Assembly: GCA_009720755.1 (NCBI GenBank)
Contig: WNKV01000002.1
Coordinates: forward strand, 62,001 to 126,000
Direction: 5' to 3'
Origin: Rhodoplanes serenus
GTDB taxonomy: Bacteria > Pseudomonadota > Alphaproteobacteria > Rhizobiales > Xanthobacteraceae
Length of the DNA: 64,000 bases
Shown here: piece by piece, positions 5,117 through 51,428 of the stretch
Layout: every line of letters starts with the position of its first letter
Position numbering within the stretch: the stretch's first letter is position 1
Notes under the pieces: generated by a model
Databases searched by the model: none
Told to the model about the DNA's origin: nothing
Seen by the model: only the letters and a program-made list of their open reading frames with translations
Translations under genes and position numbers: made by a program

Positions 5117-5125
5117 GTTGGTGCC

Positions 5126-7210: not shown

Positions 7211-8545
7211 TCAGCTCGTCTTGTGGCGCTCGTCCTTCACCCGCACCGCCTTGCCCTGGGAGCGCGGCACCTCGCCGGGCAGCATGGCGGCGACGCGGCA
7301 GCTGATTCCGATGGTCGACTTGATGCGGTGCTGGACGTCGCGGGCGATGCGGGCGCGGGCCGCGTCGTCGCGCGGCGCGTCCGGCGCGATCTCGACCTCG
7401 ACCGCCATCTGATCGAGCGCCTGCTCGCGCGTCAGCACGATCTGATAATGCGGCGCGATGCCGGGCAGGCCGACCAGCACCGACTCGACCTGCGACGGGT
7501 ACACGTTGATGCCGCGGATGATCATCATGTCGTCGTCGCGCCCGGTGACCCGCATGATCCGCACATGAGAACGGCCGCAGGCGCACGGCTCGTCGGTCAG
7601 GCGGGTGATGTCGCGGGTGCGGTAGCGCACCATCGGCAGTGCGACCTTCGAGAGCGTCGTGATCACGAGCTCGCCGGTCTCGCCGAGCGGCAGCGGCTCG
7701 AGTGTCTTGGGATCGACCACCTCGAACAGGAAATGATCCTCCCAGCCATGCAGGCCGGCCTGCTCGGTGCACTCGCAGGCGACGCCCGGACCGAGAATCT
7801 CGGACAGCCCGTAGATGTCGATGGCCTGGAGGCCGAGCCGTGTCTGGAGCTCGTGGCGCATCGCCTCGCTCCACGGCTCGGCGCCGAACACGCCGACCCG
7901 CAGGGCGAGGGCACCGCGCGGAATCCCGCTCGCCTCCGCCACCTCGGCGATGTTGAGGGCATAGGAGGGCGTGCAGCACAGGACGTTGGCGCCGAAGTCG
8001 CGCATCAGGGTCACCTGCCGCTCGGTCATGCCGCCGGAGACCGGGACCACCATGCAGCCCAGCGTCTCGGCCCCGTAATGGGCGCCGAGCCCGCCGGTGA
8101 ACAGGCCGTACCCGTAGGCGATATGGACGATGTCGCGGCGCGTCACCCCGGCGCCGACCAGCGAGCGCGCCATCAGGTCGGCCCAGACCCGGATATCGGC
8201 GGCCGTGTAGCCGACCACGATCGGCTTGCCGGTGGTGCCCGACGAGGCATGCACACGGACGATCTCGTCGCGCGGCACCGCGAACAGGTCGAACGGGTAG
8301 TTGTCGCGGAGGTCCGCCTTGCCGGTGAACGGGAAGTGGCGGATGTCGGCGAGAGTCTTCAGGTGGTCGGGCGTCACGCCGGTCTCGGCGAAGCGCCGGC
8401 GCATGTGGGGGACGTTGTCGTAAGCGTGCCGCAGCGTCTTCCTCAGGCGGGCGAGCTGGAGGTCGGCGAGATCGCGCCGCGGCATCGTCTCGGCTTGTGG
8501 ATCGTAGAGCGGCGCCGTGGCGCGGCGGGCGGCCTGCCGGTTCAT
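7211..8545 (-). CDS. paaK: phenylacetate-CoA ligase
   Basis: 444 residues, typical of PaaK. Contains the P-loop-like AMP-binding motif SSGTTGKP (101-108), 'YGLSEILGPGVACEC', 'GETGELVITTL', 'MVRYRTRDIT' and the C-terminal 'GRDDDMMIIRGINVYPSQVE' with the late catalytic lysine region 'PRSQGKAVRV'. It activates phenylacetate or a related arylacetate with ATP and CoA. It is the first gene of the minus-strand operon, separated from iorA by 234 bases in which I see no gene. No aerobic paaABCDE genes are nearby, so a role in 2-oxoacid/anaerobic arylacetate metabolism is more likely than aerobic phenylacetate ring attack (inference). Confidence 0.92.
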   Translation of the reverse strand: MNRQAARRATAPLYDPQAETMPRRDLADLQLARLRKTLRHAYDNVPHMRRRFAETGVTPDHLKTLADIRHFPFTGKADLRDNYPFDLFAVPRDEIVRVHASSGTTGKPIVVGYTAADIRVWADLMARSLVGAGVTRRDIVHIAYGYGLFTGGLGAHYGAETLGCMVVPVSGGMTERQVTLMRDFGANVLCCTPSYALNIAEVAEASGIPRGALALRVGVFGAEPWSEAMRHELQTRLGLQAIDIYGLSEILGPGVACECTEQAGLHGWEDHFLFEVVDPKTLEPLPLGETGELVITTLSKVALPMVRYRTRDITRLTDEPCACGRSHVRIMRVTGRDDDMMIIRGINVYPSQVESVLVGLPGIAPHYQIVLTREQALDQMAVEVEIAPDAPRDDAARARIARDVQHRIKSTIGISCRVAAMLPGEVPRSQGKAVRVKDERHKTS

Positions 8546-8875: not shown

Positions 8876-11173
8876 TCAGCCGCGCCGCCGTTTCTCCGGC
8901 GTGCTCTGCGACGGCGATGCCGCCAGCGCCCCGAGGACACGGGCCGGCGTTAGCGGCAGCTCGCGGATGCGGGCGCCGGTCGCCGCCGCGACCGCGTTGG
9001 CGATGGCGGCCGCGGTGGGGCCGAGTGCGGCTTCTCCGACACCGCGCGACGGCGCCTCCGGGCGGTCGATCAGCACGACGTCGACGGAGGGCACCTCGGG
9101 CATGGTGAGGATCGGGTAGTCGGCGAAGCTGCGGCTGGTGATGCCGGTTGCGTCGAAGCGCACCGCCTCGCGCAACGTCCAGCTCGTCGCCTGGATGACG
9201 CCACCCTCGATCTGCGCCGCGGCACCGTCCGGATTGACGATGGTGCCGGCATCGACCGCGATGACGACGCGCGCCACCCGCACGGCACCGCTGCGGCGAT
9301 CGACCGCGACCTCGGCGACCGCCGCCACATGGGCGCCGTCGTCGCGATAGCGGGCGAAGCCGATCCCCAGCCCCGGACGGTTGCCGCCGCGTCGCCCGGG
9401 CCAGCCGGCGCGCCGCGCCGCCGCCTCCAGCACGGCTCGGGCATGCACATCCGACAGATGAGCGAGCCGGAAGGCCAGCGGGTCGGCGCCGGCCGCCCGC
9501 GCCAGCTCGTCCATGAAGGATTCGCCGGCGAACACGTTGGCGAAGGCGCCGAGCGAGCGCAGTGCCGAGACCCGGAGCGGCATGTCGAGCACCCGGTGCT
9601 CGACGATGCGCCGGCGCGGCAGGTCGTAGGGCGGCACGGCGTTGCGCTCGGCACCGCCCCCGGCCGTCGCCGGTGCGGTGCGCGGCGGGGCCGCCTCGGC
9701 GGTGCCGTCGAGCTGCCAGGCCGCCAGAAGGTTCGGCTCGTCCGCCTCGCCGGGCCGCATCGCGTGGGTGTTGCTCCACACCGTGTGCGACCAGGTGGCG
9801 ATGCGGCCGTCGCGGCCGACCTGTCCGGCGAGATCGACCATCATGGCAGGCCCGAACGGCGACCACGCGAAGGTCTCGTCGCGCTCCCATTGCAGCCGCA
9901 CCGGGCGGCCCGGCACGGCCCGCGCGAGGAGCGCGGCGTCGAGCGCCGCGTCGTCGGCGCCGTCTTGGCCGAAGCTGCCGCCGGTCTCGGCATGGATGCA
10001 GCGGATGTCGGAGGCCGGCATGTGCAGCGCCGCGCCCAGCGCCTCGCGCAGCGCGAACACGTCCTGCGACGCGGTCCACACGGTGAGAAAGCCGTCGTCG
10101 AACACCGCGACCGCGGCCGGCGGCGCGATAGCGGCGTGCGCCACATAGGGCTTGCGGTAGCTCGCCGTCAGCGCCACCGCGCCGGCCGGTGCCGAGGCGA
10201 CGTCGTCGCCCCGCTGGTCGATCACATGGGTCTGGGCCGGGGCTGTGCGCAGGTGCTCCCACAGCCGATCGGGCGCCGGCAGGGTGGTGCCGCCGGACCA
10301 CGTGGTGGCGCGCCGCAGGGCCGCGCGCGCCTGCACGGCCTGCTCCTCGCGCTCGGCGAGCACGCCGAGAAAGCTGCCGTCGCGCACCAGCACGACGATT
10401 CTGGGCAGATCCTTCACGGCGTCCGCGTCGACGGTGTCGAGCACCGCGCCGTAGCGCGGCGGCCGCACCACGCGGCCGTACAGCAGGCCGTCGGGCGCGA
10501 TGTCCTGCACGAAGCGGGCGGCGCCCGTCACCTTGGCGGGCAGATCGCGGCGCGGCACCGCGGTGCCGACGATGCGCCGCTCCGCGGCGGGCTTGGGTCG
10601 GACCGCCGGGGCATCGGCCCGGCGGGGCGCGGTGCTGCGGGGGGCGGCGTCGGCAGCGAGCGCCGCGTAGGCGAGGCTGCGGCCGTCCGGCGCGGTGACG
10701 ACGCCGTCGCGCACCGTCAGGCGATCGGCCGGAACGTCGAGCCGCTCCGCTGCGCGATCGACCAGCAGGGCGCGCAGGGTGGCGCCGGCTTGGCGCAGTG
10801 CCGCCCCGGTCGTCTCGATGGAACGGCTGCCGGTGGTGGCGCCCTCGTTCGGCACCCGCTCGGTGTCGCCCGAGATCACCGTGACATGGTCGACCGGCAG
10901 GTCCAGCTCCTCAGCGGCGATCTGGGCGAGGGCGGTGAGCAGGCCGTGGCCCAGCTCGACCTTGCCGGTGAACAGCGTGGCCCGGCCGTCAGGGCCGATC
11001 CGCAGCCAGGCGTCGTGCGGCGGCGAGCCGGTCTGATCGGCGGCGATATCGTCGGCCGCGACCGGGGCCGCGGTGGGCTCGGGCTCGGCCGCGATCGCCG
11101 GCGTGAGCATGAAGCCGACGACGAGGCCGCCGGCTCCGGCCAGGACGGCGCGGCGGGAGATCGACGCGCGCAT
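8876..11173 (-). CDS. molybdopterin-binding subunit of a xanthine-oxidase-family hydroxylase (isoquinoline 1-oxidoreductase beta-type)
   Basis: 765 residues. Starts with a Tat signal (SISRRAVLAGAGG, then a hydrophobic stretch), so the enzyme is exported folded with its cofactor. Seen: 'DAWLRIGPDGRATLFTGKVELGHG', 'GATTGSRSIETTGAALRQAGA', 'AVPRRDLPAKVTGAARFVQD', 'YRKPYVAHAAIAPPAAVA', 'HAETGGSFGQDGADD' and the C-terminal 'SRGVGEAALGPTAAAIANAV' with the Glu expected at the Mo site. This is the large subunit of two-subunit Mo hydroxylases annotated as isoquinoline 1-oxidoreductase or aldehyde dehydrogenase. True substrate unknown. ATG 11173 is one base after the 2Fe-2S gene's stop. An upstream ATG at 11215 would lie inside that gene and spoil the Tat signal position. 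Confidence 0.85.
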   Translation of the reverse strand: MRASISRRAVLAGAGGLVVGFMLTPAIAAEPEPTAAPVAADDIAADQTGSPPHDAWLRIGPDGRATLFTGKVELGHGLLTALAQIAAEELDLPVDHVTVISGDTERVPNEGATTGSRSIETTGAALRQAGATLRALLVDRAAERLDVPADRLTVRDGVVTAPDGRSLAYAALAADAAPRSTAPRRADAPAVRPKPAAERRIVGTAVPRRDLPAKVTGAARFVQDIAPDGLLYGRVVRPPRYGAVLDTVDADAVKDLPRIVVLVRDGSFLGVLAEREEQAVQARAALRRATTWSGGTTLPAPDRLWEHLRTAPAQTHVIDQRGDDVASAPAGAVALTASYRKPYVAHAAIAPPAAVAVFDDGFLTVWTASQDVFALREALGAALHMPASDIRCIHAETGGSFGQDGADDAALDAALLARAVPGRPVRLQWERDETFAWSPFGPAMMVDLAGQVGRDGRIATWSHTVWSNTHAMRPGEADEPNLLAAWQLDGTAEAAPPRTAPATAGGGAERNAVPPYDLPRRRIVEHRVLDMPLRVSALRSLGAFANVFAGESFMDELARAAGADPLAFRLAHLSDVHARAVLEAAARRAGWPGRRGGNRPGLGIGFARYRDDGAHVAAVAEVAVDRRSGAVRVARVVIAVDAGTIVNPDGAAAQIEGGVIQATSWTLREAVRFDATGITSRSFADYPILTMPEVPSVDVVLIDRPEAPSRGVGEAALGPTAAAIANAVAAATGARIRELPLTPARVLGALAASPSQSTPEKRRRG

Positions 11174-11174
11174 G

Positions 11175-11642
11175 TCAGGTCCTCCGCGGCGCGCGGCCGG
11201 CGCGCAGCACGGCACGGACGATCCGGTTGTGGCTGCCGCAGCGGCACAGATGGTCGGCGAGGGCGGTGCGCACCTCGCTCTCGGTCGCTTTGGGATTGCG
11301 GTCGAGCAGCGCCTTGGCGGCGACCAGCATGCCGCCGGTGCACCAGCCGCACTGGGCCGCCTGCTCGGCGAGCGCCGCCGCCTGCAACGGATGCGGGTGC
11401 GCCGCGGAGCCGAGCCCTTCGATGGTGAGGATGCGGGCGTTCGTCAGCTCGCCCACCGGGGTGCGGCACGCCCGCAGGGGACGGCCGTCGACCAGCACCG
11501 TGCAGGCGCCGCACTCGCCGGCGCCACAGCCGAACTTGGTGCCGGTGAGAGCGAAGTCGTTGCGCAGCACGTAGAGAAGCGGCGTGTCGGCCGCCGCCGC
11601 GGTCTCGCGGACGGTGCCGTTGACGTTGAGACGAAGAACCAT
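11175..11642 (-). CDS. 2Fe-2S subunit of the molybdenum hydroxylase
   Basis: 155 residues. N-terminal plant-type 2Fe-2S centre with C39, C44, C47 and C59 (GCGAGECGACTV), C-terminal four-helix 2Fe-2S centre with C98, C101, C133 and C135 (QCGWCTGG ... LCRCGSH). This is the standard small subunit of xanthine-oxidase-family enzymes. It has no Tat signal itself and would travel with the Tat-tagged large subunit. ATG 11642 (MVLRLNVNG) is chosen because homologues start there. The frame stays open for 23 more codons upstream. No FAD subunit, cytochrome or cofactor-insertion (XdhC/CoxF) gene is adjacent. Confidence 0.9.
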   Translation of the reverse strand: MVLRLNVNGTVRETAAAADTPLLYVLRNDFALTGTKFGCGAGECGACTVLVDGRPLRACRTPVGELTNARILTIEGLGSAAHPHPLQAAALAEQAAQCGWCTGGMLVAAKALLDRNPKATESEVRTALADHLCRCGSHNRIVRAVLRAGRAPRRT

Positions 11643-20315: not shown

Positions 20316-20952
20316 CCATCGGACGACCGCATTGATCTCGTGACGTGAGACATGGCCGGGCATTCCGGCCATGTCTCGTTTCGGGTGGGCGGCGTGCGGC
20401 GCCGCTCGCCCGCTCGTCCTACGCGGGCTCGACCCGCCCGCATCTGCCCAGCCGCGTCATACGCGGGCTCGACCCGCGTATCCATCATCAGAAACGAGAC
20501 TCCCGCCAGGGATGGATGGCCGGGTCACGGCCTGCGGCCGGCCCGGCCATGACGGAGAGAGCGGGTCAGCCGGGCCGAGCCCGGCCATGTTGCGCTTCTG
20601 AGCCTCGCCGCCCGGGTGGATTCGGCTGGACGGCGCTGCTGCCGCCAATTGGCGGCGGGTGGCCGGCCCGCCGCGCGCGCCGGCGGCGAGAATGACAAAC
20701 GCTCGGTTGCTCGATCTCGTCCTCACGCCCTGTTCCGGGAAAAAAACCTGGCCGTCCGCGGTTCTGTGCGATAAGGAACCGCTTTCCGATCTGGCCGGAC
20801 CGAGTTCGGATTCCGCGGTGCGACGTGCTCGCGCTGCGCGCAGGCCGTTCCTGCGATGCTCCTGCCCGGCCCGCACGGCGGCCCTCGCCGTGCCGTGATG
20901 GCCGCCGCCCTGGCGACCGTGGCTCCCGGATCGGCAAGGCGAGGTGGGCGGC
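20316..20952. repeat. long intergenic region with REP-like palindromes
   Basis: 637 bases without a gene I can support. After the terminator at 20347-20382 there are two copies of TACGCGGGCTCGACCCGC (20420-20437 and within 20459-20481). The second forms a hairpin with 9-bp arms (ATACGCGGG/CCCGCGTAT, loop CTCGA). A further GC-rich palindrome with TGGCCGGG/CCCGGCCA arms lies at about 20516-20552. This matches the dispersed palindromic repeats common in Rhizobiales. A similar element sits at 59641-59721. Bases about 20600-20952 must hold the promoter of the Ehr operon. Nothing clear seen there. Confidence 0.6.
20347..20382 (+). terminator. hairpin terminator after the L,D-transpeptidase gene
   Basis: Perfect 13-bp stem GAGACATGGCCGG / CCGGCCATGTCTC with a 5-base loop GCATT, followed by GTTTC. 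It lies 32 bases after the stop codon. The T-tract is short, so efficiency is uncertain. Confidence 0.55.
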
Positions 20953-22965
20953 ATGCCTGAGGTCGCAGTCGCGCTGTGGTGCATCGCGGGCTTTCTCGGA
21001 GCGGGCGTCGTCGGCGCCGTCCTGGGGAACCGTCCGTTCGCCACGCCGCTCGTCTACGGGGCTTGCCTCGCGATCGCGCTGCTCGGCGTGCTGGTCGCTC
21101 TCGGGGTGCTGTTCGGCGGGGCTCCGGCCACGGCCGTTGTGCTGCCGGTGGGGCTGCCCGGCATCGGCGCCCATGTCCGCCTCGATCCGCTCGCCGCCTT
21201 CTTCATGCTGGTGGTCGATCTCGGCGCCGCCGCCGCGAGCCTCTACGCCATCGGCTACGGCCGCCACGCGGCCGAGCCGCGGCGGGTGCTGCCGTTCTAC
21301 GGCGCCTTCCTGGCCGGCATGAACCTGGTGGTGCTCGCCGCCGACGCCTTCACGTTCCTGCTCTCCTGGGAGTTCATGTCGCTGGCTTCGTGGGCGCTGG
21401 TGGTGTCCGATCATCGCAGCTCCGCCAGCCTGCGGGCCGGCTACGTCTATCTGCTGATGGCGGGCTTCGGCACCTTCTGCCTGCTGCTCGCCTTCGGCCT
21501 GCTCGCCGGGACCAGCGGCGACTTCACCTTCGCGCATCTGCGCACCGCCGGGGCGGGCGAGACCGCGACGGCGCTGGCCACCATGCTGGTGATCGTCGGC
21601 ACCGGCTCCAAGGCCGGTCTGATGCCGCTGCATGTGTGGCTGCCGCTCGCCCATCCGGCCGCACCGAGCCACGTCTCGGCGCTGCTCAGCGGCGTGATGA
21701 CCAAGGTCGGCATCTATGCCTTCATCCGCCTCGTCTTCGATGTGATCGGCGATTTCAGCCCGTGGGTGGGCCTCGTCGTCGTGATGTCGGGCGGCGGCAC
21801 CGCGGTGCTCGGCGTGCTCTATGCGGTGATGCAGCGCGACCTGAAGCGGCTGCTCGCCTATTCGACGGTCGAGAATGTCGGCATCGTGTTCATCGGCCTT
21901 GGCCTGGCGCTCGCCTTCCGGGCCAACGGGCAGGGGCCGGCGGCCGCGCTGGCGATGACCGCGGCGCTGTTCCACGTCCTCAATCACGCGGCCTTCAAGA
22001 GCCTGTTGTTCTTCGGCGCCGGCGCGGTGCTGGCGGGGAGCGGCGAGCGCGACATGGAGAAGCTCGGCGGCCTCGTCCACCGCATGCCGCAGACCGCCGT
22101 GGTGTTCCTGCTCGGCTGCATGTCCATCGCGGCGCTGCCGCCGCTCAACGGCTTCGTCTCCGAGTGGCTGACCTTCCAGGCCATCCTGCTCAGCCCGCAG
22201 CTGCCGCAATGGGGGCTCAAGTTCGCGGTGCCGGCGGTCGGCGCCCTGCTGGCACTGGCGGCGGCGCTGGCCGGCGCCTGCTTCGTCAAGGCGTTCGGGG
22301 TGGTGTTCCTGGGCCGGCCGCGCTCACCCGCCGCCGCGACGGCGCACGAGATCGACGCCTTCGGGCTCACCGCCATGCTGACGCTCGCCTGGATCTGCCT
22401 CGCCGCCGGCACGCTGCCCGGCTTCGTCATCGATGCGCTCGCGCCGGTCACCCGCGATCTCACCGGCAGCGCGCTGCCGGCGCAGGCCAGCCTGCCATGG
22501 CTGTCGATCGTGCCGATCGCCGAGAGCCGCAGCTCCTACAACGGCCTCGTCGTCTTCTTCTTCCTCGTCGCCTCCGGCTCCTTCACGGCCATCGCGGTGC
22601 ATCGTGTGGCGAGCCGGCGCACCCGCCGGGCGCCCGCCTGGGACTGCGGCTATCCGCTCGACAGCCCGCTCACCCAGTATTCGGGAGCGAGCTTCGCGAT
22701 GCCGATCCGCCGCGTGTTCGCCACCGTCACCTTCGGGGTGCACGAGACCGTCGACATGCCGCGCCCCGGCGAGATGCGGCCGGCGCGCTTCCGCCTGCGG
22801 GTGCGCGATCCCGCCTGGCGGTTCTTCTACGGGCCGCTCGCGCGCGGCGTCGAGCGGGCCGCCCGCCGGCTCAACCGGCTCCAGTTCCTGACCATCCGCC
22901 GCTATCTCGCGCTGGTGTTCGCGGCCCTGGTGGTCCTCATGCTGGTGGTGGCGGCATGGCGATGA
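20953..22965 (+). CDS. hyfB: Ehr complex, antiporter-like membrane subunit (HyfB/NuoL-type)
   Basis: 670 residues (E. coli HyfB is about the same). Around 14-16 hydrophobic segments. Antiporter-like core: 'FTFLLSWEFMSLASWALVV', 'GTGSKAGLMPLHVWLPLAHPAAPSHVSALLSG' with the Lys-Pro-His signature, 'MQRDLKRLLAYSTVENVGIV' and 'FFGAGAVLAGSGERDMEKLGGL'. Proposed proton/ion-pumping subunit of a complex-I-like machine. ATG 20953 is chosen. First gene of the six-gene operon, overlapping hyfC by 10 bases. The symbol reflects homology to hydrogenase-4, not hydrogenase activity. Confidence 0.88.
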   Translation: MPEVAVALWCIAGFLGAGVVGAVLGNRPFATPLVYGACLAIALLGVLVALGVLFGGAPATAVVLPVGLPGIGAHVRLDPLAAFFMLVVDLGAAAASLYAIGYGRHAAEPRRVLPFYGAFLAGMNLVVLAADAFTFLLSWEFMSLASWALVVSDHRSSASLRAGYVYLLMAGFGTFCLLLAFGLLAGTSGDFTFAHLRTAGAGETATALATMLVIVGTGSKAGLMPLHVWLPLAHPAAPSHVSALLSGVMTKVGIYAFIRLVFDVIGDFSPWVGLVVVMSGGGTAVLGVLYAVMQRDLKRLLAYSTVENVGIVFIGLGLALAFRANGQGPAAALAMTAALFHVLNHAAFKSLLFFGAGAVLAGSGERDMEKLGGLVHRMPQTAVVFLLGCMSIAALPPLNGFVSEWLTFQAILLSPQLPQWGLKFAVPAVGALLALAAALAGACFVKAFGVVFLGRPRSPAAATAHEIDAFGLTAMLTLAWICLAAGTLPGFVIDALAPVTRDLTGSALPAQASLPWLSIVPIAESRSSYNGLVVFFFLVASGSFTAIAVHRVASRRTRRAPAWDCGYPLDSPLTQYSGASFAMPIRRVFATVTFGVHETVDMPRPGEMRPARFRLRVRDPAWRFFYGPLARGVERAARRLNRLQFLTIRRYLALVFAALVVLMLVVAAWR

Positions 22966-23912
22966 TGCTCGACCTCGCGCTCCAGCTCGTGCAGATCACC
23001 CTGTTGGTGGCGATCGCGCCGCTGATCGTCGGCATCACCCGCAAGGTGCGGGCGCGGCTGTTGCGCCGGCGCGGGCCGCCGCTGCTGCAACCCTATCACG
23101 ACCTGTGGAAGCAGATGCACAAGGAGGCGGTGGTCGCCGACAACGCCTCGTGGGTCTATCGCCGCGCTCCCTACATGGTGTTCGCAGCGACCTGGGTGGC
23201 GGCCGGCCTGGTGCCGACCTACGCGACCGGGCTGTTGTTCTCGTGGTCGGCCGACCTGATCGCCGTGGTGGCGCTGCTCGGCACCGCGCGCTTCGCCCTG
23301 GCGCTGGCCGCCATGGATGTCGGCACCGCCTTCGGGGGCCTCGGCGCCTCGCGCGAGATGATGATCGCGTCGCTGGCGGAGCCCGCGATGCTGCTGATCG
23401 CCTTCGCGGTCGCGCTCATCGCCGGCACCACCCAGCTCTCCGCCATCGCGGCCTTGTTCGCCACCGGGGACGTCGGGCTGCGGGTGTCGCTCGGCCTGGC
23501 GCTGCTCGCCCTCGTCATCGTCGGCATCGCCGAGAACGCCCGCATTCCGATCGACAATCCGTCGACGCATCTCGAGCTGACCATGGTGCACGAGGCGATG
23601 ATCCTCGAATATTCGGGCCGCCATCTCGCGATGATCGAGGCCGCCTCGCACCTCAAGCTGGTGCTCTACTTCTCGCTGGTCGGCTGCCTGTTCGTGCCGT
23701 TCGGCATGGCGACCGGCGACAAGACGTTGCCGGCGCTCGCCATCGGGCTCGCCACCTTCGTGGCCAAGCTGGTCGCCTTCGCGGTGCTGCTGCCGATCGC
23801 CGAGACCACCGTCGCCAAGATGCGGGTGTTCCGCTATCCGGCCTTCATCGGCAGCGCCTTCGCGGCGGCGGCGCTCGCGGTGTTCCTGCGCTTCGTCTCG
23901 CGGGGGTTCTGA
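22956..23912 (+). CDS. hyfC: Ehr complex, NuoH-like membrane subunit (HyfC-type)
   Basis: 318 residues, about eight hydrophobic segments. 'RGPPLLQPYHDLWKQMHKE' and 'ENARIPIDNPSTHLELTMVHEAMILEYSGRHLAMIE' are the conserved cytoplasmic loops of the NuoH/HyfC/HycD family that join the hydrophilic arm to the pump. 'ALAAMDVGTAFGGLGASREMM' is also typical. ATG 22956 overlaps the end of hyfB, and the TGA overlaps the hyfE start (TGATG). Confidence 0.9.
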   Translation: MAMMLDLALQLVQITLLVAIAPLIVGITRKVRARLLRRRGPPLLQPYHDLWKQMHKEAVVADNASWVYRRAPYMVFAATWVAAGLVPTYATGLLFSWSADLIAVVALLGTARFALALAAMDVGTAFGGLGASREMMIASLAEPAMLLIAFAVALIAGTTQLSAIAALFATGDVGLRVSLGLALLALVIVGIAENARIPIDNPSTHLELTMVHEAMILEYSGRHLAMIEAASHLKLVLYFSLVGCLFVPFGMATGDKTLPALAIGLATFVAKLVAFAVLLPIAETTVAKMRVFRYPAFIGSAFAAAALAVFLRFVSRGF

Positions 23913-24583
23913 TGTCGACGTTGTGGTTCGATATCGCGCATCTGTTCGCCGGCGGCGTGCTGGTGCTCAGCCTGGCGCTGCTCTACCAGGACCGCATCAC
24001 CGCGGTGATCAACGTATTCGCGCTCCAGGCGGTGGTGCTGTCGCTGTCGGTCGCCTGGCAGTCGGTGGTGCAGGGGGCGCCGCATCTCGTCGCCACCGCG
24101 GTGATCGCGCTGGTGGCCAAGGGCCTGATCATCCCGACCGCGCTGCATCGCATCGTCCGCAAGCTCGACGTGCATCGCGAGGTCGAGCGGGCGATCGGCG
24201 GCGGCCCCACCATGCTGGCCGGCCTCGGCCTGGTGGCGCTGTCGATCCTGCTGGTCGAGCCGGTGGTCGACACCGCCGATCCGGTGGCGCGCGAGGACTT
24301 CGCCTTCGCGCTCGCCGTGGTGCTGCTCGGCCTCCTGATGATGATCACGCGGCGCAACGCCGTCACCCAGGTGGTCGGCTTCATGTCGCTGGAGAACGGC
24401 CTGGTGCTCGCCGCCACCGGCGCCAAGGGCATGCCGCTGGTGGTCGAGGTGTCGGTCGCCTTCTCGGTGCTGATCGCCTTCATCGTCTTCGGGGTGTTCG
24501 TGTTCCGCATTCGCGAGCGCTTCGACACCGTCGACGTCAACGTGCTCGAACGCTTCCGCGGCGAGCGGCGGGAGCATCTGTGA
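23912..24583 (+). CDS. hyfE: Ehr complex, HyfE-type small membrane subunit
   Basis: 223 residues, close to E. coli HyfE. Hydrophobic segments resembling NuoK plus extensions: 'DRITAVINVFALQAVVLSLSVAWQSVV', 'TAVIALVAKGLIIPTALHRIVRKL', 'RNAVTQVVGFMSLENGLVLAATG' with the membrane Glu. ATG 23912 overlaps the hyfC stop. Its own TGA (24581-24583) overlaps the start of a 31-codon reading frame that bridges to hyfF. Confidence 0.88.
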   Translation: MSTLWFDIAHLFAGGVLVLSLALLYQDRITAVINVFALQAVVLSLSVAWQSVVQGAPHLVATAVIALVAKGLIIPTALHRIVRKLDVHREVERAIGGGPTMLAGLGLVALSILLVEPVVDTADPVAREDFAFALAVVLLGLLMMITRRNAVTQVVGFMSLENGLVLAATGAKGMPLVVEVSVAFSVLIAFIVFGVFVFRIRERFDTVDVNVLERFRGERREHL

Positions 24584-24678
24584 TGGGGAGCATCGCCACC
24601 ATCGCCATCGGCCCGTCCCTGGTCATGTCCGCGACGCGCGCCGACATGGCGACTCAGAGTTCGACGAGGATGCGATGA
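24583..24678 (+). CDS. 31-residue micro-ORF bridging hyfE and hyfF
   Basis: The only non-overlapping gap between the four membrane-subunit genes is exactly filled by an open frame ATG 24583 to TGA 24678. Its ATG overlaps the hyfE stop (TGATG) and its TGA overlaps the hyfF start (ATGA). GGAG at 24571-24574 stands 8 bases before the ATG. The peptide starts MGSIATIAIGPSLVM and continues with a polar Met/Thr/Arg-rich tail. No family recognised and no clear membrane segment. It may be a real small protein, a translational-coupling device, or chance. Confidence 0.4.
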   Translation: MGSIATIAIGPSLVMSATRADMATQSSTRMR

Positions 24679-26135
24679 CCGACCTCGTCGCCGCTCTGCC
24701 GCTGCCGCCGGTGGCGCTGGTTCTGCTGATCCCGGCGCTCGCGATTCCGGTACTCGCGGTGATCTCGAACTACCGGCTCGGCGCCGGCCTCAACGTGCTC
24801 GCCTCCGGTCTCACGCTCGTGGCGGGGCTGATGCTGCTGGTCGCGCCGCGGGTGCGCGGCGATTTCCTGATCGTCGACGACTTCAACATCTTCCTCGTGG
24901 TGCTCACCGCCTTCGTCGGCTTCTCGACCAGCGTGTACAGCGCCAGCTATATCGGCCACGAGCTCGACATCGGCCGGCTGACGCCGGTGTTCCTGCGCTT
25001 CTACCACGCCATGTACCAGGCCATGATGGGCGCCATGAATCTGGCGCTCGTCTCCAACAATATCGGCCTGATGTGGGTGGGGCTGGAGGTGGCCACGCTC
25101 GCCACCGTGATGATGGTCGGTCTCTACCGCACCCCGGAGGCCATCGAGGCGGCGTGGAAGTACTTCATCCTCGGCAGCGTCGGCATCGGGCTGGCCTTCT
25201 TCGGCACCATCCTGATCTACATGGTGTCGTCGAGCGTCATCGGCGGCGGCGTCCCGGCGATGGCGTGGGACCAGATTCTCGTCAACGCCGCCAAGCTGGA
25301 GCCGCGACTCCTGTCGCTCGCCTTCGTGTTCCTGCTGGTCGGCTACGGCACCAAGGTCGGGCTGGCTCCGTTCCACGCCTGGCTGCCGGACGCCCATGCC
25401 GAAGGTCCGACGCCGATCTCGGCGGTGCTGTCGGGCCTCCTGCTCAACGTCGCCCTCTATGCGCTGCTGCGCTTCAAGATGGTGCTGGCCGGCAATGCCG
25501 GGGCCATCGACGTCGGCGCCATCATGATGACGCTCGGGCTGGTCAGCGTGCTGTTCGCCGCCCTGATGCTGTACCGGCGGCGCGACATCAAGCGGCTGTT
25601 CGCCTATTCGTCGATCGAGCACATGGGCATCGCCACCTTCGCGTTCGGCATCGGCGGGCCGCTCGCCAACTTCGCCGGCCTGCTGCACATGAGCATGCAT
25701 TCGCTGGTCAAGTCGGCGATCTTCTTCGCGGTCGGCCACATCGCCCAGGCCAAGGGCACCCAGCGTCTCGCCGATCTCGGCGGCCTGTCGGCGACCCATC
25801 CGATGCTGGCGGTCGGCTTCGCGCTCGGCGTCGTGGCGATCGTCGGGCTGCCGCCGTTCGGCGTGTTCACCAGCGAGTTCCTGCTGATCTCCATCGCCTT
25901 CACGCACCAGCCGATCCTCACCGTGATCCTGGTCGTCGGCCTCCTGGTCGCGCTCGGGGCGCTCCTCTTGCGCCTCCAGCAGGTGGTGTTCGGCGAGCCG
26001 CGCGGAAAGGCCGATCCGGTGGAGGCGTCCTACGTGCCGCTGTTCGTCCATCTCGCGCTGGCGCTGGTCGCCGGCCTGTGGCTGCCGGAGGCGCTGGTGC
26101 GCTGGTTCCGCAGCGTCGCCTCGCTGCTCGGGTGA
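24675..26135 (+). CDS. hyfF: Ehr complex, antiporter-like membrane subunit (HyfF/NuoN-type)
   Basis: 486 residues, somewhat shorter than E. coli HyfF. Multi-span antiporter-like protein: 'NNIGLMWVGLEVATLATVMMVGLY', 'YGTKVGLAPFHAWLPDAHAEGPTPISAVLSGLLLNVALYALLR' (conserved Lys and Pro in the pump helix) and 'YRRRDIKRLFAYSSIEHMGI'. Second putative ion-pumping unit. ATG 24675 has GAGGA five bases upstream and overlaps the micro-ORF stop by four bases. Five bases separate its stop from the large-subunit gene. Confidence 0.9.
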   Translation: MTDLVAALPLPPVALVLLIPALAIPVLAVISNYRLGAGLNVLASGLTLVAGLMLLVAPRVRGDFLIVDDFNIFLVVLTAFVGFSTSVYSASYIGHELDIGRLTPVFLRFYHAMYQAMMGAMNLALVSNNIGLMWVGLEVATLATVMMVGLYRTPEAIEAAWKYFILGSVGIGLAFFGTILIYMVSSSVIGGGVPAMAWDQILVNAAKLEPRLLSLAFVFLLVGYGTKVGLAPFHAWLPDAHAEGPTPISAVLSGLLLNVALYALLRFKMVLAGNAGAIDVGAIMMTLGLVSVLFAALMLYRRRDIKRLFAYSSIEHMGIATFAFGIGGPLANFAGLLHMSMHSLVKSAIFFAVGHIAQAKGTQRLADLGGLSATHPMLAVGFALGVVAIVGLPPFGVFTSEFLLISIAFTHQPILTVILVVGLLVALGALLLRLQQVVFGEPRGKADPVEASYVPLFVHLALALVAGLWLPEALVRWFRSVASLLG

Positions 26136-26140
26136 TCGCG

Positions 26141-27658
26141 ATGCGCCAGGATCGGGTTTCCGCTCTGCTCGCCGACGTTCCTGCCGGACCACTTCGTCCG
26201 TGGCCGCGTCACGAGGTCGACGCCGCCGTCTTCGCCACCATCGCCGAGGCGCTCGGCGCCGGCGAGCGCGAGCTTCTCGCCCTGTGGGGCGAGCCCGGCC
26301 GGGTCCACATGGCGATCCGCATGGTCGGCGAGATGCCGTGCGTGATCTCCACCGCGGTGGTCGACGGCCGCTTCCCGTCGGTCGGCCGCTGGCATCCGCC
26401 GGCGATCCGGCCGGAGCGGGCGATCCGCGACCTGTTCGGCTACGAGCCCGAGGGGGCGCCCGACATTCGGCCGTGGCTCGATCACGGGGCGTGGGACCGC
26501 TCGGCGCCGCTCGGTGCGGCCGGCCCGGCGGTGCGGCGCGATCCGGCCGACTACGAGATGCTGCCGGTGATCGGCGAGGCGCTGCATCAGATCCCCGTCG
26601 GCCCGGTGCATGCCGGCATCATCGAGCCCGGCCACTTCCGGTTCACCGCCAACGGCGAGACGGTGGTGCGGCTGGAGGAGCGCCTCGGCTACGTCCACAA
26701 GGGGATCGACGCGCTCACCACCGACGTGCCGATCGCCCGCGCCGCCGAGCGGGTGGCGCGCCTCTCCGGCGATTCCACCGTGGCGGCGAGCTTCGCGTTC
26801 GCGCGTGCCGTCGAGGCGGCGCTCGGCATCACGGCGCCGCCGCGCGCCGCCGCCATCCGCGGCGTGATGGCCGAGCTGGAGCGGCTCGCCAACCATTTCG
26901 GCGATGTCGGCGCCATCTGCAACGACGCCGCCTTCGCGATCGTGCTGGCCCATTGCGGCATTTTCCGCGAGCGCATCCTGGCGCTCTCCGCCGCCGTGTT
27001 CGGCCATCGGCTGATGATGGACACGATCGTGCCGGGCGGTGTCGCCGCTAACATCACGGCCGAGGCGGCCCGCATGATCGTCGCCACGCTCGATGCGCTG
27101 CTGCCGGCCTTCGACGAGATCGTCCGTCTCTACGAGGACACGCCGTCGATCCAGGATCGCACCTGTGGCACCGGCCATCTCGCCGCCGACCTCGCGGTGC
27201 GCTTCGCGGCCGGCGGGCCGGTCGGGCGCGCCTCGGCGCGCGACTTCGACGCGCGGCGCGATCTCGCCTATCCGCCCTACGAGGGCCGCGCCTTCGACGT
27301 GCCGGTGTTCACCGCCGGTGACGTCGACGCCCGCATCCGGGTGCGCATCGGCGAGATCGCCGCCTCGGCGACGCTGATCCGGGCGCTGCTGGGGACCATG
27401 CCGGAGGGGCCGATCCTGGCGCCGGTGCCCGAGGCGGTGGCCCCGTGCGAGGGCATCGCGGTCACCGAGGCGTTCCGCGGCGATCTGCTGGTGTGGGTGC
27501 GGCTCGCGGCGGGGGGACGGGTGGCGCGCTGCCATGTGCGCGACGCCTCGTGGTTCCAGTGGCCGCTGCTCGAAGCCGCCATCGAGGGCAACATCGTGGC
27601 CGACTTCCCGCTGTGCAACAAGTCGTTCAACTGCTCCTACTCGGGACACGACCTGTGA
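26141..27658 (+). CDS. Ehr complex large subunit (HyfG/HycE/NuoCD-like) without NiFe-binding cysteine pairs
   Basis: 505 residues. The N-terminal NuoC-like part holds 'PERAIRDLFGYEPEGAPDIRPWL' (86-113). The NuoD/large-subunit part follows with 'PVGPVHAGIIEPGHFRF' (152-168), 'EERLGYVHKGIDALTT' (179-194) and 'ELERLANHFGDVGAICNDAAF' (245-265). Where group 4 hydrogenases have RxCGxC, this protein has RVARLSGDST (204-213). At the C-terminus, instead of DPCxxC, it ends FNCSYSGHDL (496-505), keeping at most one Cys (C498). A NiFe site is therefore not expected. No C-terminal protease-cleaved extension follows, and no hyp genes are nearby. This fits the energy-converting hydrogenase-related (Ehr) family, whose reaction is unknown. 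Confidence 0.85.
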   Translation: MRQDRVSALLADVPAGPLRPWPRHEVDAAVFATIAEALGAGERELLALWGEPGRVHMAIRMVGEMPCVISTAVVDGRFPSVGRWHPPAIRPERAIRDLFGYEPEGAPDIRPWLDHGAWDRSAPLGAAGPAVRRDPADYEMLPVIGEALHQIPVGPVHAGIIEPGHFRFTANGETVVRLEERLGYVHKGIDALTTDVPIARAAERVARLSGDSTVAASFAFARAVEAALGITAPPRAAAIRGVMAELERLANHFGDVGAICNDAAFAIVLAHCGIFRERILALSAAVFGHRLMMDTIVPGGVAANITAEAARMIVATLDALLPAFDEIVRLYEDTPSIQDRTCGTGHLAADLAVRFAAGGPVGRASARDFDARRDLAYPPYEGRAFDVPVFTAGDVDARIRVRIGEIAASATLIRALLGTMPEGPILAPVPEAVAPCEGIAVTEAFRGDLLVWVRLAAGGRVARCHVRDASWFQWPLLEAAIEGNIVADFPLCNKSFNCSYSGHDL

Positions 27659-27703
27659 GGATGGCGCCGTTCTCAGAGGCCGGAGTCCCGTGACGAGGCC
27701 GCC

Positions 27704-28255
27704 ATGCGCACGCTGATCCTGAAGTCGCTGTTCGCCAGGCCCGTCACCGTGCCGGCGCCGGACCCTGCGACCGCCGCGCTGGAGGAGGTCGGCCGTGCCC
27801 TGGAGGCGCGAGTGCGCCGCGTCTACGGTCGCTCGCTGGCGATCCGCGAGGTCGATGCCGGCTCCTGCAACGGCTGCGAGCTGGAGATCCACGCGCTCAA
27901 CAATGCCGTCTACGATTGCGAGCGCTTCGGCCTGCGCTTCGTCGCCTCGCCGCGCCATGCCGATGTGCTGATGGTGACCGGCCCGGTCACCCGGAACATG
28001 CGGGTGGCGCTGGAGCGCACCTATGCGGCGACGCCCGATCCCAAGTGGGTGGTGGCGGTAGGCGATTGCGGCGCCGGCTGCGGCGTGTTCGAGGGCAGCT
28101 ACGCGGTGGTCGGTGCGGTCGACAAGGTAATTCCGGTCGATCTCACGATCCGCGGTTGCCCGCCGCGTCCGATCGACCTGTTGCAGGGGCTCGTGGCGCT
28201 GATCGACCAGGCCGCCAAGGCCCGGCCGGGCGCGGAGACTATCCGGGCCCGCTGA
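27704..28255 (+). CDS. Ehr complex small subunit (HyfI/NuoB-like [4Fe-4S] protein)
   Basis: 183 residues. [4Fe-4S] ligands in the NuoB/small-subunit pattern: C55 and C58 (SCNGCELEIHALNN), C122 (GDCGAGCGVFEGSY) and C152 (RGCPPRPIDLLQGL). The proximal/N2-type cluster is intact although the large subunit lacks its NiFe site, so electron transfer into the complex is still expected. It ends the hyf-like operon. A 10-codon frame (27661-27693) lies in the 45-base gap before it. No HyfH/NuoI-like ferredoxin subunit is present, so the electron donor must come from elsewhere. Confidence 0.88.
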   Translation: MRTLILKSLFARPVTVPAPDPATAALEEVGRALEARVRRVYGRSLAIREVDAGSCNGCELEIHALNNAVYDCERFGLRFVASPRHADVLMVTGPVTRNMRVALERTYAATPDPKWVVAVGDCGAGCGVFEGSYAVVGAVDKVIPVDLTIRGCPPRPIDLLQGLVALIDQAAKARPGAETIRAR

Positions 28256-30828: not shown

Positions 30829-32391
30829 TCAGAGCGGGATCAGGCCGTGCTTCTTCGGCGGCCGCAGCTCGCGCTTGGTGAGCAGCTTGCGGAGCGACAT
30901 CGACACCACGGCGCGGGTCAGCTCCGGCTCGATGATGTCGGTGATGTAGCCCTTGCAGGCGGCCAGATAGGGCGAGGCGAACTCGTTGCGATAGTGCTCG
31001 ACGAACTCCTTGCGTTTGGCCTTCTTGGCCTCGGCGTCCTCGATCGCCTTCAGCTCCTTGCTGTACAGGATGTTGACCGCGCCCTCGGCGCCCATCACGG
31101 CGATCTGGGCGGTCGGCCAGGCGAACACCACGTCGGCGCCCATCTCCTGGCTGCACATGGCGAGATAGGAGCCGCCATACGCCTTGCGGGTCACGATGGT
31201 GATCTTCGGCACGGTGGCGCTCGAATAGGCGAACAGCATCTTGGCGCCGTGCCGGATGATGCCGCCGCGCTCCTGGTCGGTGCCCGGCAGGAAGCCGGGC
31301 ACGTCCACGAAGGTCACGATCGGGATGTTGAAGGCGTTGCAGAAGCGGATGAACCGCGCGCCCTTGTCGGAGGAGTCGATGTCGAGGCAGCCCGCCTTCT
31401 CCATCGAGTTGTTGGCGAGGACGCCGACCACCACGCCCTGCACGCGGCCGAAGCCGACGATCAGGTTCTTGGCGAAATTGGCGTGGATCTGGAACAGGTC
31501 GCCGCCATCGAGCACGCGCCGCAGGATGGCCAGCATGTCCATCGGGTCGGAGGCGTCCGAACGCACCAGGGCGTCCATCCCCGGGTCCGGCTCCATGTCG
31601 AGCTGCGGGCTCGGATCGTGCGGCGGATCGTCGGTGTTGTTGCTCGGGAAGAACGACAGCAGCTTGCGGGTCAGCTCCACCGCGTGGCGATCGTCGTCGG
31701 CGAGGAGATGGACATTGCCGCTCACCGCGGCGTGCATCTCGGCGCCGCCGACATCCTCCATGCTGACGTCGCGCCCCGACACCGCCTTGATCACCTGCGG
31801 GCCGGTGATGAACATCTGGGCGTTCTTCCGCGTCATGATGATGAAGTCCATCAGCGCGGGAGAGTAGGAGGCGCCGCCGGCGCACGGGCCGGCGATGATG
31901 GCGATCTGCGGCACCACGCCGGAGAGCGAGACGTTGCGGTAGAACACCTCGCCGTAGCCCGAGAGGGCGTCGATGCCCTCCTGGATGCGAGCGCCGCCCG
32001 AGTCCTTGAAGCCGACCAGCGGAACGCCATTCTTCTCGGCGTAGTCCTGGGCCCAGACGATCTTCTGGCCGTGCGACTTGCCGAGCGTGCCGCCGACCAC
32101 GGTGAAGTCCTGGCTGAAGGCGGCGATCTGGCGGCCGTCCACATAGCCGGTGCCGACCACCACGCCGTCGGCCGGGATGTCCACCTCGGACATGCCGAAG
32201 GCGGTGCAGCCGTGGCGGATGTGGGCGCCGTATTCCTGGAAGGTGCCGTCCTGGAGCAGGGCGGCGAGGCGCTCACGCGCCGTCATCAGCCCCTTGGTAT
32301 GCCGATCGGCTGTCTTCTTGGCGCCGCCGGCCGCCATCACCTTGTCGCGTCGCCGCGCCAGCGTCGACCGTAGTTCCTCGTCGAGCGGCAT
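30829..32391 (-). CDS. acyl-CoA carboxyltransferase (methylmalonyl-CoA decarboxylase alpha / propionyl-CoA carboxylase beta)
   Basis: 520 residues, typical. N-terminal crotonase-fold half with 'KGLMTARERLAALLQDGTF', 'KSHGQKIVWAQDYAEKNGVPLVGFKDSGGARIQEG' and 'AGPCAGGASYSPALMDF'. C-terminal half with 'VPGFLPGTDQERGGIIRHGAKMLFAYSSATVPKITIVTRKAYGGSYLAM' and the oxyanion 'MGAEGAVNILY'. Transfers carboxyl between biotin and propionyl-CoA or a similar acyl-CoA. AGGGGGGCGAGC precedes ATG 32391. First gene of the three-gene minus-strand operon. Company with an OadG-like protein suggests a decarboxylase-type assembly, but biotin carboxylase and pump subunits are both absent here. Confidence 0.88.
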   Translation of the reverse strand: MPLDEELRSTLARRRDKVMAAGGAKKTADRHTKGLMTARERLAALLQDGTFQEYGAHIRHGCTAFGMSEVDIPADGVVVGTGYVDGRQIAAFSQDFTVVGGTLGKSHGQKIVWAQDYAEKNGVPLVGFKDSGGARIQEGIDALSGYGEVFYRNVSLSGVVPQIAIIAGPCAGGASYSPALMDFIIMTRKNAQMFITGPQVIKAVSGRDVSMEDVGGAEMHAAVSGNVHLLADDDRHAVELTRKLLSFFPSNNTDDPPHDPSPQLDMEPDPGMDALVRSDASDPMDMLAILRRVLDGGDLFQIHANFAKNLIVGFGRVQGVVVGVLANNSMEKAGCLDIDSSDKGARFIRFCNAFNIPIVTFVDVPGFLPGTDQERGGIIRHGAKMLFAYSSATVPKITIVTRKAYGGSYLAMCSQEMGADVVFAWPTAQIAVMGAEGAVNILYSKELKAIEDAEAKKAKRKEFVEHYRNEFASPYLAACKGYITDIIEPELTRAVVSMSLRKLLTKRELRPPKKHGLIPL

Positions 32392-32982
32392 GCTCGCCCC
32401 CCTGTTCCGCGATGCCTGATGAATGACGACGTCGCGTCGCGTGCCCCGTCCACCGCACCAAAGCGGCCTCGGCCAGATCAGTGTTCGTGAACCGCGGCCG
32501 GGGCGACTACACCATAAGGCCGCTGCTTCGTCGAATCCCCCGGCCTCGCGGCAGTTATGCACTAGCGCCATATATCCTAGACGAATCAATAAGCAGTGAT
32601 CCGGGGCCGGGGTCTGCGGGACGCCGCTATGACGTCAGGTCGCGGGTCGGCCGACCGGCTGCGTCGGCATGCCGCTCGCCCGCGGCGAGGGTCGTGGCGT
32701 CTCGCACCGGCCCCGATTAGGGACTGGCTAGCCAGTCGGGCTTTCGAGCGATGAATCGTCGTGCCGACCGTGTTAGCCTTCCGATGCGCGCAGAATCGGG
32801 TGTGCGGGGCTGCCGCGCACGGGGCCGGGCCGGGGGCGGCGAGGGGAAGGCCGCGATCTCCCCGTGCGCGCGCCCGTGTTCGCGCGATGGGGCGCAGCCG
32901 GGTGTTGCAGGAAGGTCGCACCCGGGCCGGTATGCGGGGGGATGGGCCCATTCATGACGTTCGCGTTTGAACCGCCGACTTT
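32392..32982. other. divergent intergenic region, no gene seen
   Basis: 591 bases between the divergent carboxyltransferase and ECF sigma genes. It must hold promoters for both. I found no coding frame with believable composition and start, and no clear -35/-10 pair. Bases 32500-32620 are less GC-rich. The ECF gene probably has an auto-regulated promoter here, but I cannot point to it. Confidence 0.4.
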
Positions 32983-36635: not shown

Positions 36636-37640
36636 TCACCACCCGAGCGCGGCGAAAATCCGGTCGACCGCCACGGCGGGTGACAGCCGTCCGTCGGCGA
36701 CATCCGCCTCGAGGCGCGGCAGCTTGGCGGCGAGCGATGGATCGGAGGTGATGCGGGTGCGCATGCGGTCCTCGACCATCGACCACATCCACTTCACCTG
36801 CTGGTCGCGCCGGCGCGCCGCCAGCTCGCCGGTCTTGGTCATGGTGTCGCGATGCTCCACCACCTTGGCCCACAGCGCCGCGAGGCCGTCGCCCGTGTAA
36901 GCCGAGTACGTGACGACCGGCACCTGCCAGTTCGGCGAGCGCGGCGACAGGATGTGCAGCGCCGCCCGGTACTCGGCCGCCGCGGTGCGGGCGCGGGGGA
37001 GGTTGTCGCCGTCCGCCTTGTTGACCGCGATCATGTCGGCGAGCTCGACCAGGCCCTTCTTGATGCCCTGGAGCTCGTCGCCGGCGCCCGGCAGCATCAG
37101 GGCGAGGAAGAAGTCGGTCATGTCGGCGACGGTGGTCTCCGACTGGCCGGTGCCGACCGTCTCGACCAGGATCACGTCGTAGCCGGCGGCCTCGCAGATC
37201 AGCATGGTCTCGCGCGTCTTGGCGGCGACACCGCCGAGCGTGCCGGCCGAGGGCGACGGACGGATGAAGGCGTGCGGATCGGCCGAGAGCTGCGCCATCC
37301 GGGTCTTGTCGCCGAGGATCGAGCCGCCGGTGCGGGCCGAGGAGGGGTCGACCGCCAGCACCGCCACCCTGTGGCCCTGGCCGGTGAGGTAGGCGCCGAG
37401 CGCATCGATGGTGGTCGACTTGCCGACGCCCGGAGCGCCGGTGATGCCGACGCGCAGCGCCTGCCCGGTGTCCGGCAGGAGCGCCTGCACCAGGGCACGG
37501 GCGGCGAGCTGGTGATCGGCGCGCTTCGACTCGGCGAGCGTGATGGCGCGGGCGAGCACAGCGCGCTGGCCGGCGCGGACGCCGGCGACCAGGCGGTCGA
37601 TGTCGGGAGCCGACGGGGCGGTGTGGGTGCGCGGACTCAT
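36636..37640 (-). CDS. meaB: methylmalonyl-CoA mutase-associated GTPase MeaB
   Basis: 334 residues, typical. P-loop GAPGVGKS (68-75), 'AVLAVDPSSARTGGSILGDKTRMAQLSADPHAFIRPSPS', 'VILVETVGTGQSETTVADMTDFF' (switch/Walker B) and NKAD. MeaB guards and reloads the cobalamin of methylmalonyl-CoA mutase, which is encoded 12 kb away in this window (49-53.3 kb). ATG 37640 chosen, as the upstream open frame is low complexity. Regulation not visible. Confidence 0.95.
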   Translation of the reverse strand: MSPRTHTAPSAPDIDRLVAGVRAGQRAVLARAITLAESKRADHQLAARALVQALLPDTGQALRVGITGAPGVGKSTTIDALGAYLTGQGHRVAVLAVDPSSARTGGSILGDKTRMAQLSADPHAFIRPSPSAGTLGGVAAKTRETMLICEAAGYDVILVETVGTGQSETTVADMTDFFLALMLPGAGDELQGIKKGLVELADMIAVNKADGDNLPRARTAAAEYRAALHILSPRSPNWQVPVVTYSAYTGDGLAALWAKVVEHRDTMTKTGELAARRRDQQVKWMWSMVEDRMRTRITSDPSLAAKLPRLEADVADGRLSPAVAVDRIFAALGW

Positions 37641-37905
37641 GGTGCCCCCGTGTAGAGCACAGGTCGGCGGCGAGCGGAACGCCCGCCGGGGCGACGGCGC
37701 CATGCAGGCCGCCAGAACAGGGGTTGCGCCGGGGCCGGCCGGGCGGGGGCGCGGCACCGCGCCCCGGGGGCCGGCCATCGCACCCGCCGCTCATGATCAT
37801 TGATATCAATGGTTTATGGGCGTGGTTAACGAAACATGAACTTTCCTCTCCCCTTGCCCTACCAAACCGATATCATTCGAGAAATTTCCGCGGGGAGGGG
37901 ATCTC

Positions 37906-49032: not shown

Positions 49033-51198
<2,166 letters not shown>

Positions 51199-51428
51199 GT
51201 TCGAGCCTCTCGCGCGAAGCGACCCGCCGGCCGCCAAAGTCTCAGGTCCTATCGGTCCGTCGCCGTCGGCGTGGTCGCCGTCGTGGCGGAAGGGCGATCG
51301 AGGCGGCTCGCCGGCACCTGCGTGACGGTGCCTCGGCCCGATCCTCGTCGCGCGGCCACCGGGCCGCTCGCCGGAGCGCGCGGTCGCGGCCAGGCCGCGT
51401 CCGTCGCTCCGGGGTCGTCACGTCGTCC

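Follow-up and report, generated by a model that had tools for sequence, protein, structure and literature searches.

We find that a stretch of the Rhodoplanes serenus genome (64,000 nt of contig WNKV01000002.1, hereafter the window, to which all positions refer) encodes, judging by its predicted proteins, a well-preserved member of the energy-converting hydrogenase-related (Ehr, ehrABCDLS) complexes. The complex is very probably no hydrogenase; it is likely to act as an ion-pumping oxidoreductase fed by a soluble carrier. A sequence-only reading of the same DNA had put the locus forward as a candidate for an undescribed system, a view that has to be withdrawn since the kind is already described, in papers on Geobacter, Methylacidiphilum, Nitrospira, ammonia-oxidising archaea and lineages sibling to Cyanobacteria (PMC6349859, PMC6688271, PMC12342949, PMC10432482, PMC10284858, PMC7894505). 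In the excerpts consulted, several papers state that the NiFe ligands are missing, and most call the function unknown or untested, which bears out that reading where it regarded the substrate and the electron partner of Ehr as not established.

The ehr operon and its surroundings

Translation of open reading frames together with profile matches placed a run of six genes on the + strand at 20944-28255 (Table 1), which by its predicted products is a complete six-subunit Ehr set (A, B, C, D, L and S), antiporter-like subunits included. The subunit letters follow excerpts of PMC6688271 and PMC7894505, the letters B and D having been matched to HyfC and HyfF by letter order. The HyfB, HyfC, HyfE and HyfF types named in the sequence-only reading are all present; an ORF at 23923-24678 was rejected as hyfE because it lies in another frame. 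Genes within the run overlap by 4 bases (ehrA/ehrB) and by 1 base (ehrB/ehrC), and no HyfH-like gene occurs in it, in agreement with the earlier claim that a HyfH-like ferredoxin is lacking.

Table 1. Features of the ehr run (window positions)
Feature	Position	Strand	Evidence
ehrA: hyfB-like, NuoL-type antiporter-like subunit, 673 aa	20944..22965	+	NCBIfam 'hydrogenase 4 subunit B' 847 bits, cut-off 667
ehrB: hyfC-like, NuoH-type membrane anchor, 316 aa	22962..23912	+	PF00146 4.4e-39
ehrC: hyfE-like, 223 aa	23912..24583	+	frame from translation; homologue at the equivalent place in related loci
ehrD: hyfF-like, second antiporter-like subunit, 486 aa	24675..26135	+	NCBIfam 'hydrogenase 4 subunit F' 772 bits, cut-off 533
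ehrL: large subunit, HycE/HyfG/NuoCD-like, without NiFe ligands, 505 aa	26141..27658	+	alignments and tree
Codons of S209-G-D-S212, replacing hydrogenase CGIC	26765..26776	+	HycE alignment
Codons of EhrL residues 492-505 (CNKSFNCSYSGHDL), aligned to HycE 524-537, in the place of CYSC; protein end	27614..27655	+	
ehrS: small subunit, C55, C58, C122 and C152 for one [4Fe-4S]	27704..28255	+	PF01058

The related loci compared were the best 80 of at least 583 confirmed relatives. All six genes stand in this order on one strand in 61 of the 80; in nine the first gene or genes of the operon are missing, and ten have no ehrS beside ehrL (L025 among these because its contig ends there); a broken gene order was seen in none, so that the arrangement is not due to chance. 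The nearest relatives among the matches listed were Rhodoplanes elegans and R. tepidamans, with a large subunit 80% identical to that of the window, and related operons were also matched in strains of Rhodopseudomonas, Xanthobacter and Methylocystis. Each of the ten genomes without ehrS beside ehrL carries the gene at another place in its assembly (266 to 289 bits), and the idea of a cluster-free Ehr in Rhodopila-type genomes was rejected for this reason. On the ten stretches fetched around unlinked ehrS, eight showed no other ehr genes and two had ehrS in the Y-type operon described below. The eight lone copies (L156-L161, L163 and L164) come from Rhodopila-type and related genomes, and some of their contigs are short.

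Clustering of the ORFs that flank these 80 loci (again the best 80 of at least 583) and the window, with flanks of differing length, brought up no conserved redox partner gene and no FDH cluster among the conserved ORFs. The one widely conserved real neighbour is a well-conserved gene of about 80 aa, read as XRE-like from its sequence, just upstream of hyfB on the same strand, found in 37 of the 60 loci that have hyfB and more than 600 bases upstream of it (e.g., L021:4634-4888); it possibly regulates Ehr. The window, L004 and L005 showed no such gene. Three other large flank clusters look like antisense shadow ORFs (three members of each were judged), and the next real cluster, which is ABC-transporter-like, occurs in 12 loci. 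An SDF-type dicarboxylate transporter gene lies downstream of the run in the window; it was rejected as an Ehr partner, a homologue having been seen in just one of the 80 loci (Rhodoplanes elegans), within flanks of unequal length. The window further holds two methylmalonyl-CoA mutase genes (49033-53429, - strand), a MeaB GTPase gene (36636-37778) and a carboxyl transferase gene (30829-32589).

Ligand positions of the large subunit

EhrL aligns with HycE of the E. coli formate hydrogenlyase (FHL; 7z0s_E) over residues 76-502 (E 3.5e-50), and also with NuoD. The HycE ligands C241, C244, C531 and C534 fall on S209, S212, S499 and G502, i.e., none of the four Cys is kept, with HycE CGIC facing S209-G-D-S212 and CYSC facing S499-Y-S-G502. 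As aligned, EhrL is therefore without the four Cys ligands of a group 4 [NiFe] hydrogenase. The sequence-only reading had been correct in describing a large subunit without a NiFe site and a C-terminal SYSGHDL in place of CxxC, and partly so in giving ARLS as the replacement of CGxC: residues 206-209 do read ARLS, but the true equivalent is SGDS at 209-212, which overlaps it by one residue. The EhrL alignment held 118 Ehr sequences, the window's included and second copies from the same genomes removed, of which 99 form a close group (E1) and 19 a divergent one (E2). Residue 209 is Ser in 98/99 of E1 and 18/19 of E2, the remaining two having Cys, and all 118 have Gly at residue 502.

C492 and C498 might suggest a hydrogenase whose ligands have moved, since they lie near the former site and are both Cys in 99/99 of the close group, but in the divergent group Cys is found at 492 in 2/19 and at 498 in 14/19, so these are not family-wide shifted ligands and were rejected as displaced ones. 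Together with the lack of HypD in the genome (see below) this leaves such a hydrogenase a negligible probability. The alignment check proposed earlier, for four conserved Cys at shifted positions, likewise found none family-wide among the 118 sequences. Every one of the 118 aligned EhrL ends at the position of HycE R537, which we take to be the cut site of the HycI protease, while HycE runs 32 residues further; C-terminal cleavage thus seems unnecessary, and EhrL seems to be made at mature length.

Kinship was examined in a tree of 44 rows, consisting of 29 ligand-less large subunits, seven HycE/HyfG-type proteins and eight NuoD (one of which, L176, is short and divergent); of the described Geobacter, Nitrospira and Methylacidiphilum types, the last was the one represented by name, through L082 from Methylacidiphilaceae. 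A branch at 100/100 separates the 29 ligand-less rows from both other types, and because they form a single group the loss of the ligands is, on this tree, old and a trait of the whole Ehr group. The assignment to the Ehr type made in the sequence-only reading therefore stands; its wording that the subunit "has lost" the site holds in that the ligands are absent, but not as an event in this genome. Two further ligand-less types lie inside the 29-row group. The X type (L116:8375-13374 and L117, from the alphaproteobacteria G039 and G295) has its own small subunit and different neighbours, with no match above 30 bits to the EhrA, EhrC and EhrD profiles at either locus, and its large subunit ends in SSFGILSTGVDL in L116. 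The Y type (L162:9306-15586 and L165:9318-15649) is a second divergent Ehr-like operon beside a standard Ehr in the same genomes, with, in L162, the motif SADS and the C-terminus SFALPASGMDL. A tandem ehrA pair ahead of ehrB was also observed (L127:2007-6183 and L130:1907-6021), in a family, f28, with many Ehr-bearing members.

Residues of the cavity, the cluster and the pump

Residue roles were taken from excerpts on the structures of FHL (PMC9474812) and MBS (PMC7684303), the former giving HycE E193 as the proton-exchanging Glu and H188 as part of the coupling loop. Their counterparts E162 and H157 are each kept in 99/99 of E1 and 18/19 of E2, H252 (HycE H284) in 117/118, and E405 (HycE E437), R363 (HycE R395) and the canopy R446 (HycE R478) in 118/118. 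Nearly all EhrL would on this basis keep the hydrogenase proton path (E162, H252, E405, R363, R446). Other positions have changed: the canopy Asp D529 of HycE has become N497 and G526 has become K494 in 118/118, D192 corresponds to I161 in 99/99 of E1 and 18/19 of E2, and H289, which is Ala in HycE, is His in 118/118 as well as in the X and Y types. The quinone-site His and Tyr of complex I (Nqo4 H38 and Y87) are replaced in EhrL by I161 and G210, so that a quinone would need another site. It should be noted that the proposed EhrL site is not universal, since several of its residues are missing from L105 (Phe at 157 and Ala at 162), from the X type (no H157, E162, K494 or N497) and from the Y type, which has the Glu at 162 and lacks H157, K494 and N497. 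In the predicted structure pLDDT is below 50 in precisely the site loops (154-164, 181-184 and 501-543), and the cavity geometry was set aside as unusable on account of this low confidence. The EhrL fold matches the complex I large subunit, in a comparison covering mainly model residues 145-503 and the EhrS part barely; MBS was not among the matches listed, which does not speak against a likeness.

In the alignments made subunit by subunit, matches covering less than 80% of the query or containing X were dropped; with the window's own sequences, 66 remained for A, 72 for B, 74 for C, 77 for D, 81 for L and 70 for S. EhrS C55, C58, C122 and C152 are present in 70/70, in line with the earlier description of an intact [4Fe-4S] small subunit, and EhrS aligns with MbhJ over 142 residues with no gap. 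From the CxxC with two further Cys and this gap-free match the EhrS cluster is predicted to be fully Cys-ligated; the MBS motif, by comparison, is given as three residues shorter with three Cys ligands in the relevant passage of PMC7684303. Selected electron transfer is indicated by the four invariant cluster Cys and by the retention of ehrS even where it is unlinked. EhrA E143, K223 and E407 occur in 66/66, EhrD E138, K227 and E401 in 77/77, and EhrB E132, E140, E191, E205, E211 and E216 in 72/72; these are the usual pump and E-channel-type residues. EhrA C568, the counterpart of the coupling-loop Cys C537 of HycC, is found in 65/66. EhrB has H203 and H210 in 72/72, against Glu and Gln in HyfC and HycD, and the loop that carries them was three residues longer than in HyfC/HycD in the two Ehr sequences compared.

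Hydrogenase and ferredoxin markers across genomes

In the R. serenus genome (5.5 Mb, completeness 99.71%) neither PF00374 nor HypD (PF01924), the Hyp protein searched, was matched, and there is no Fdh-alpha at E<=1e-150; NuoD is the only other 49-kDa homologue found. The absence of hyp and formate dehydrogenase genes, reported before for the window, thus extends to HypD and Fdh-alpha genome-wide. Nor does the locus resemble formate hydrogenlyase in content, as FDH and ferredoxin-like subunits are absent from the operon. The missing NiFe ligands, the old and group-wide character of their loss and these genomic absences are the grounds on which we regard the complex as very probably not a hydrogenase. 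Excerpts of two Geobacter proteomics papers count against this, since they discuss Ehr with H2 metabolism: the authors of one (PMC7894505) link the rise of Ehr with formate to H2 made from formate, and the other (PMC8691401) raises a possible role of Ehr in hydrogen metabolism.

The distribution of markers was surveyed in 299 genomes of the window's phylum, with an Ehr-type large subunit called at >=465 bits and one partial case (G144, at a contig end) excluded; 57 genomes carried it. HypD was found in 21/57 Ehr genomes against 60/242 others (p 0.07, kinship ignored) and was missing in 36/57; when completeness of >=90% and contamination of <=5% were required, 42 Ehr genomes remained, 19 with HypD and 23 without. 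All seven genomes with a HycE-type match (249 to 265 bits) had HypD. POR_N, a marker of 2-oxoacid:ferredoxin oxidoreductases, occurred in 33/57 Ehr genomes against 89/242 others (p 0.004, kinship ignored) and, within the alphaproteobacteria, in 10/16 against 19/70 (p 0.016, kinship ignored); 24/57 Ehr genomes gave no match at E<=1e-10. POR_N was matched six times in the R. serenus genome and by two proteins encoded in the window. The survey points weakly to ferredoxin as the best-supported partner candidate. The window carries putative 2-oxoacid:ferredoxin oxidoreductase genes at 2222-6976 on the - strand (TPP_enzyme_C; POR_N with PFOR_II; POR with Fer4; and an IorA-like gene with POR_N), adjoining a phenylacetate-CoA-ligase-like gene (7211-8545) and an XDH-type molybdenum hydroxylase gene (8876-11215), all named from Pfam matches.

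Relation to known complexes

The founding Ehr papers are those of Coppi in 2005 and Marreiros in 2013. Compared with the described complexes (Geobacter GSU0739-45, Methylacidiphilum ehrABCDLS and those of Nitrospira) the window has the same six subunit types and is likewise without the NiFe ligands, and the EhrL of the Methylacidiphilaceae relative L082 is 55% identical to its own; no difference of kind was found. Neither in the window nor in its Rhodoplanes relatives is hyfB preceded by the XRE-like gene. With E. coli hydrogenase-4 (hyf) and hydrogenase-3 of the formate hydrogenlyase (hyc) the window shares the B, C, E, F, G and I types in the same order, whereas HyfA, HyfD, HyfH and HyfJ are absent from the Ehr operon; EhrL is like HycE over most of its length, including the proton-path residues, but has no Cys ligands, an Asn for the canopy Asp and no C-terminal extension. 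Complex I (NuoD/NuoB/NuoH) shares the large-subunit fold and the NuoL/M- and NuoH-type membrane subunits, and EhrL has N251 and D262 as in NuoD, but the Ehr operon has no NADH module and EhrL no quinone-site His and Tyr, and the complex I small subunit is described, in the excerpts consulted, with two adjacent Cys where EhrS has CxxC. The Pyrococcus MBS sulfane reductase is, like Ehr, related to the group 4 hydrogenases and has no NiFe site; as far as the excerpts of PMC7684303 go, it differs in having a ferredoxin-like subunit, MbsN, in keeping two of the four Cys and in its small-subunit motif, and EhrS has neither its three-Cys proximal cluster nor the shortened motif.

Proposed reaction and alternatives

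The reading that we tentatively favour, without calling it probable, is that Ehr would pass electrons between a ferredoxin- or flavodoxin-type carrier and a small acceptor, perhaps a quinone, by way of the EhrS cluster, and couple this to ion pumping. As a ferredoxin subunit of the HycF/HyfH type is missing from the operon, we infer that the soluble one-electron carrier would dock directly on EhrS, whose single cluster would exchange electrons between it and the acceptor in a cavity between EhrL, EhrS and EhrB. The acceptor might be held by the Ehr-specific S209, D211, H289, K494 and N497 together with EhrB H203/H210, and protons would enter along the retained hydrogenase path (E162; H252-E405-R363; R446). 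Turnover would shift the coupling loops, EhrL H157 against EhrA C568, and so lead to ion translocation, and operation in reverse, with a proton gradient used to reduce the carrier, would be possible. To name ferredoxin and quinone as the two partners is a guess with some support from the comparisons above. A doubtful but still appreciable possibility is that EhrL holds an active site of a new type with no metal cofactor of its own, made of S209-G-D-S212, H289, K494, N497 and the longer EhrB loop (H203, H210), which would couple ion pumping to the reduction of some substrate that is neither H2 nor quinone nor sulfur, again with a soluble carrier at the EhrS cluster.

In the cell the machine might work the other way round, the proton gradient driving electrons from quinol to ferredoxin and providing low-potential electrons, e.g., for nitrogenase. 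The R. serenus genome has one NifH, and within the alphaproteobacteria NifH occurs in 5/16 Ehr genomes against 4/70 others (p 0.010, kinship ignored), but the whole sample gives 10/57 against 26/242 (p 0.17, kinship ignored) and no NifH at E<=1e-110 was found in 11 of the 16 alphaproteobacterial Ehr genomes, and we consider habitual reverse flow unlikely. We think it very unlikely that a formate dehydrogenase supplies the electrons, as proposed for lineages sibling to Cyanobacteria (PMC6349859): the genome has no Fdh-alpha at E<=1e-150, the conserved flanks hold no FDH cluster, and Fdh-alpha over the curated cut-off occurs in 17/57 Ehr genomes (missing in 40/57) against 102/242 others (p 0.10), or in 29/57 against 135/242 at E<=1e-150 (kinship ignored). 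Excerpts of the literature do speak for this coupling, in that levels of all Geobacter Ehr subunits were higher with formate than under conditions that contained hydrogen (PMC7894505) and fdhA adjoins nuoE/F-like genes in some Ehr genomes (PMC6349859). FDH, NifH and POR_N were each rejected as obligate partners, none being universal among Ehr genomes.

Two other explanations would place the chemistry elsewhere. In an MBS-like reaction the proximal [4Fe-4S] cluster would itself reduce a hydrophobic substrate, e.g., polysulfide, in the emptied cavity; Pyrococcus MBS is reported, in excerpts of PMC7684303, to lack two of the four NiFe-site Cys and the quinone residues and to have a catalytic proximal cluster. 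The shorter, three-ligand motif of MBS contrasts, however, with the predicted full ligation of EhrS, and the proton Glu absent from MBS is mostly present in EhrL, which makes this reaction improbable for Ehr. The complex could also be mainly an ion transporter for pH homeostasis, its redox chemistry secondary or absent, as parts of PMC6688271 suggest for Methylacidiphilum and as intact pump residues would allow, but the four cluster Cys occur in every EhrS aligned, and ehrS is retained also where it lies apart from ehrL; the probability of such a role is low.

An oxidoreductase that exchanges electrons with a soluble carrier and pumps ions thus remains the likely description of the complex. 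Ehr is common in the phylum, being present in 57 of the 299 genomes sampled, and the comparison narrows the question of its function to a few residues and one [4Fe-4S] cluster.
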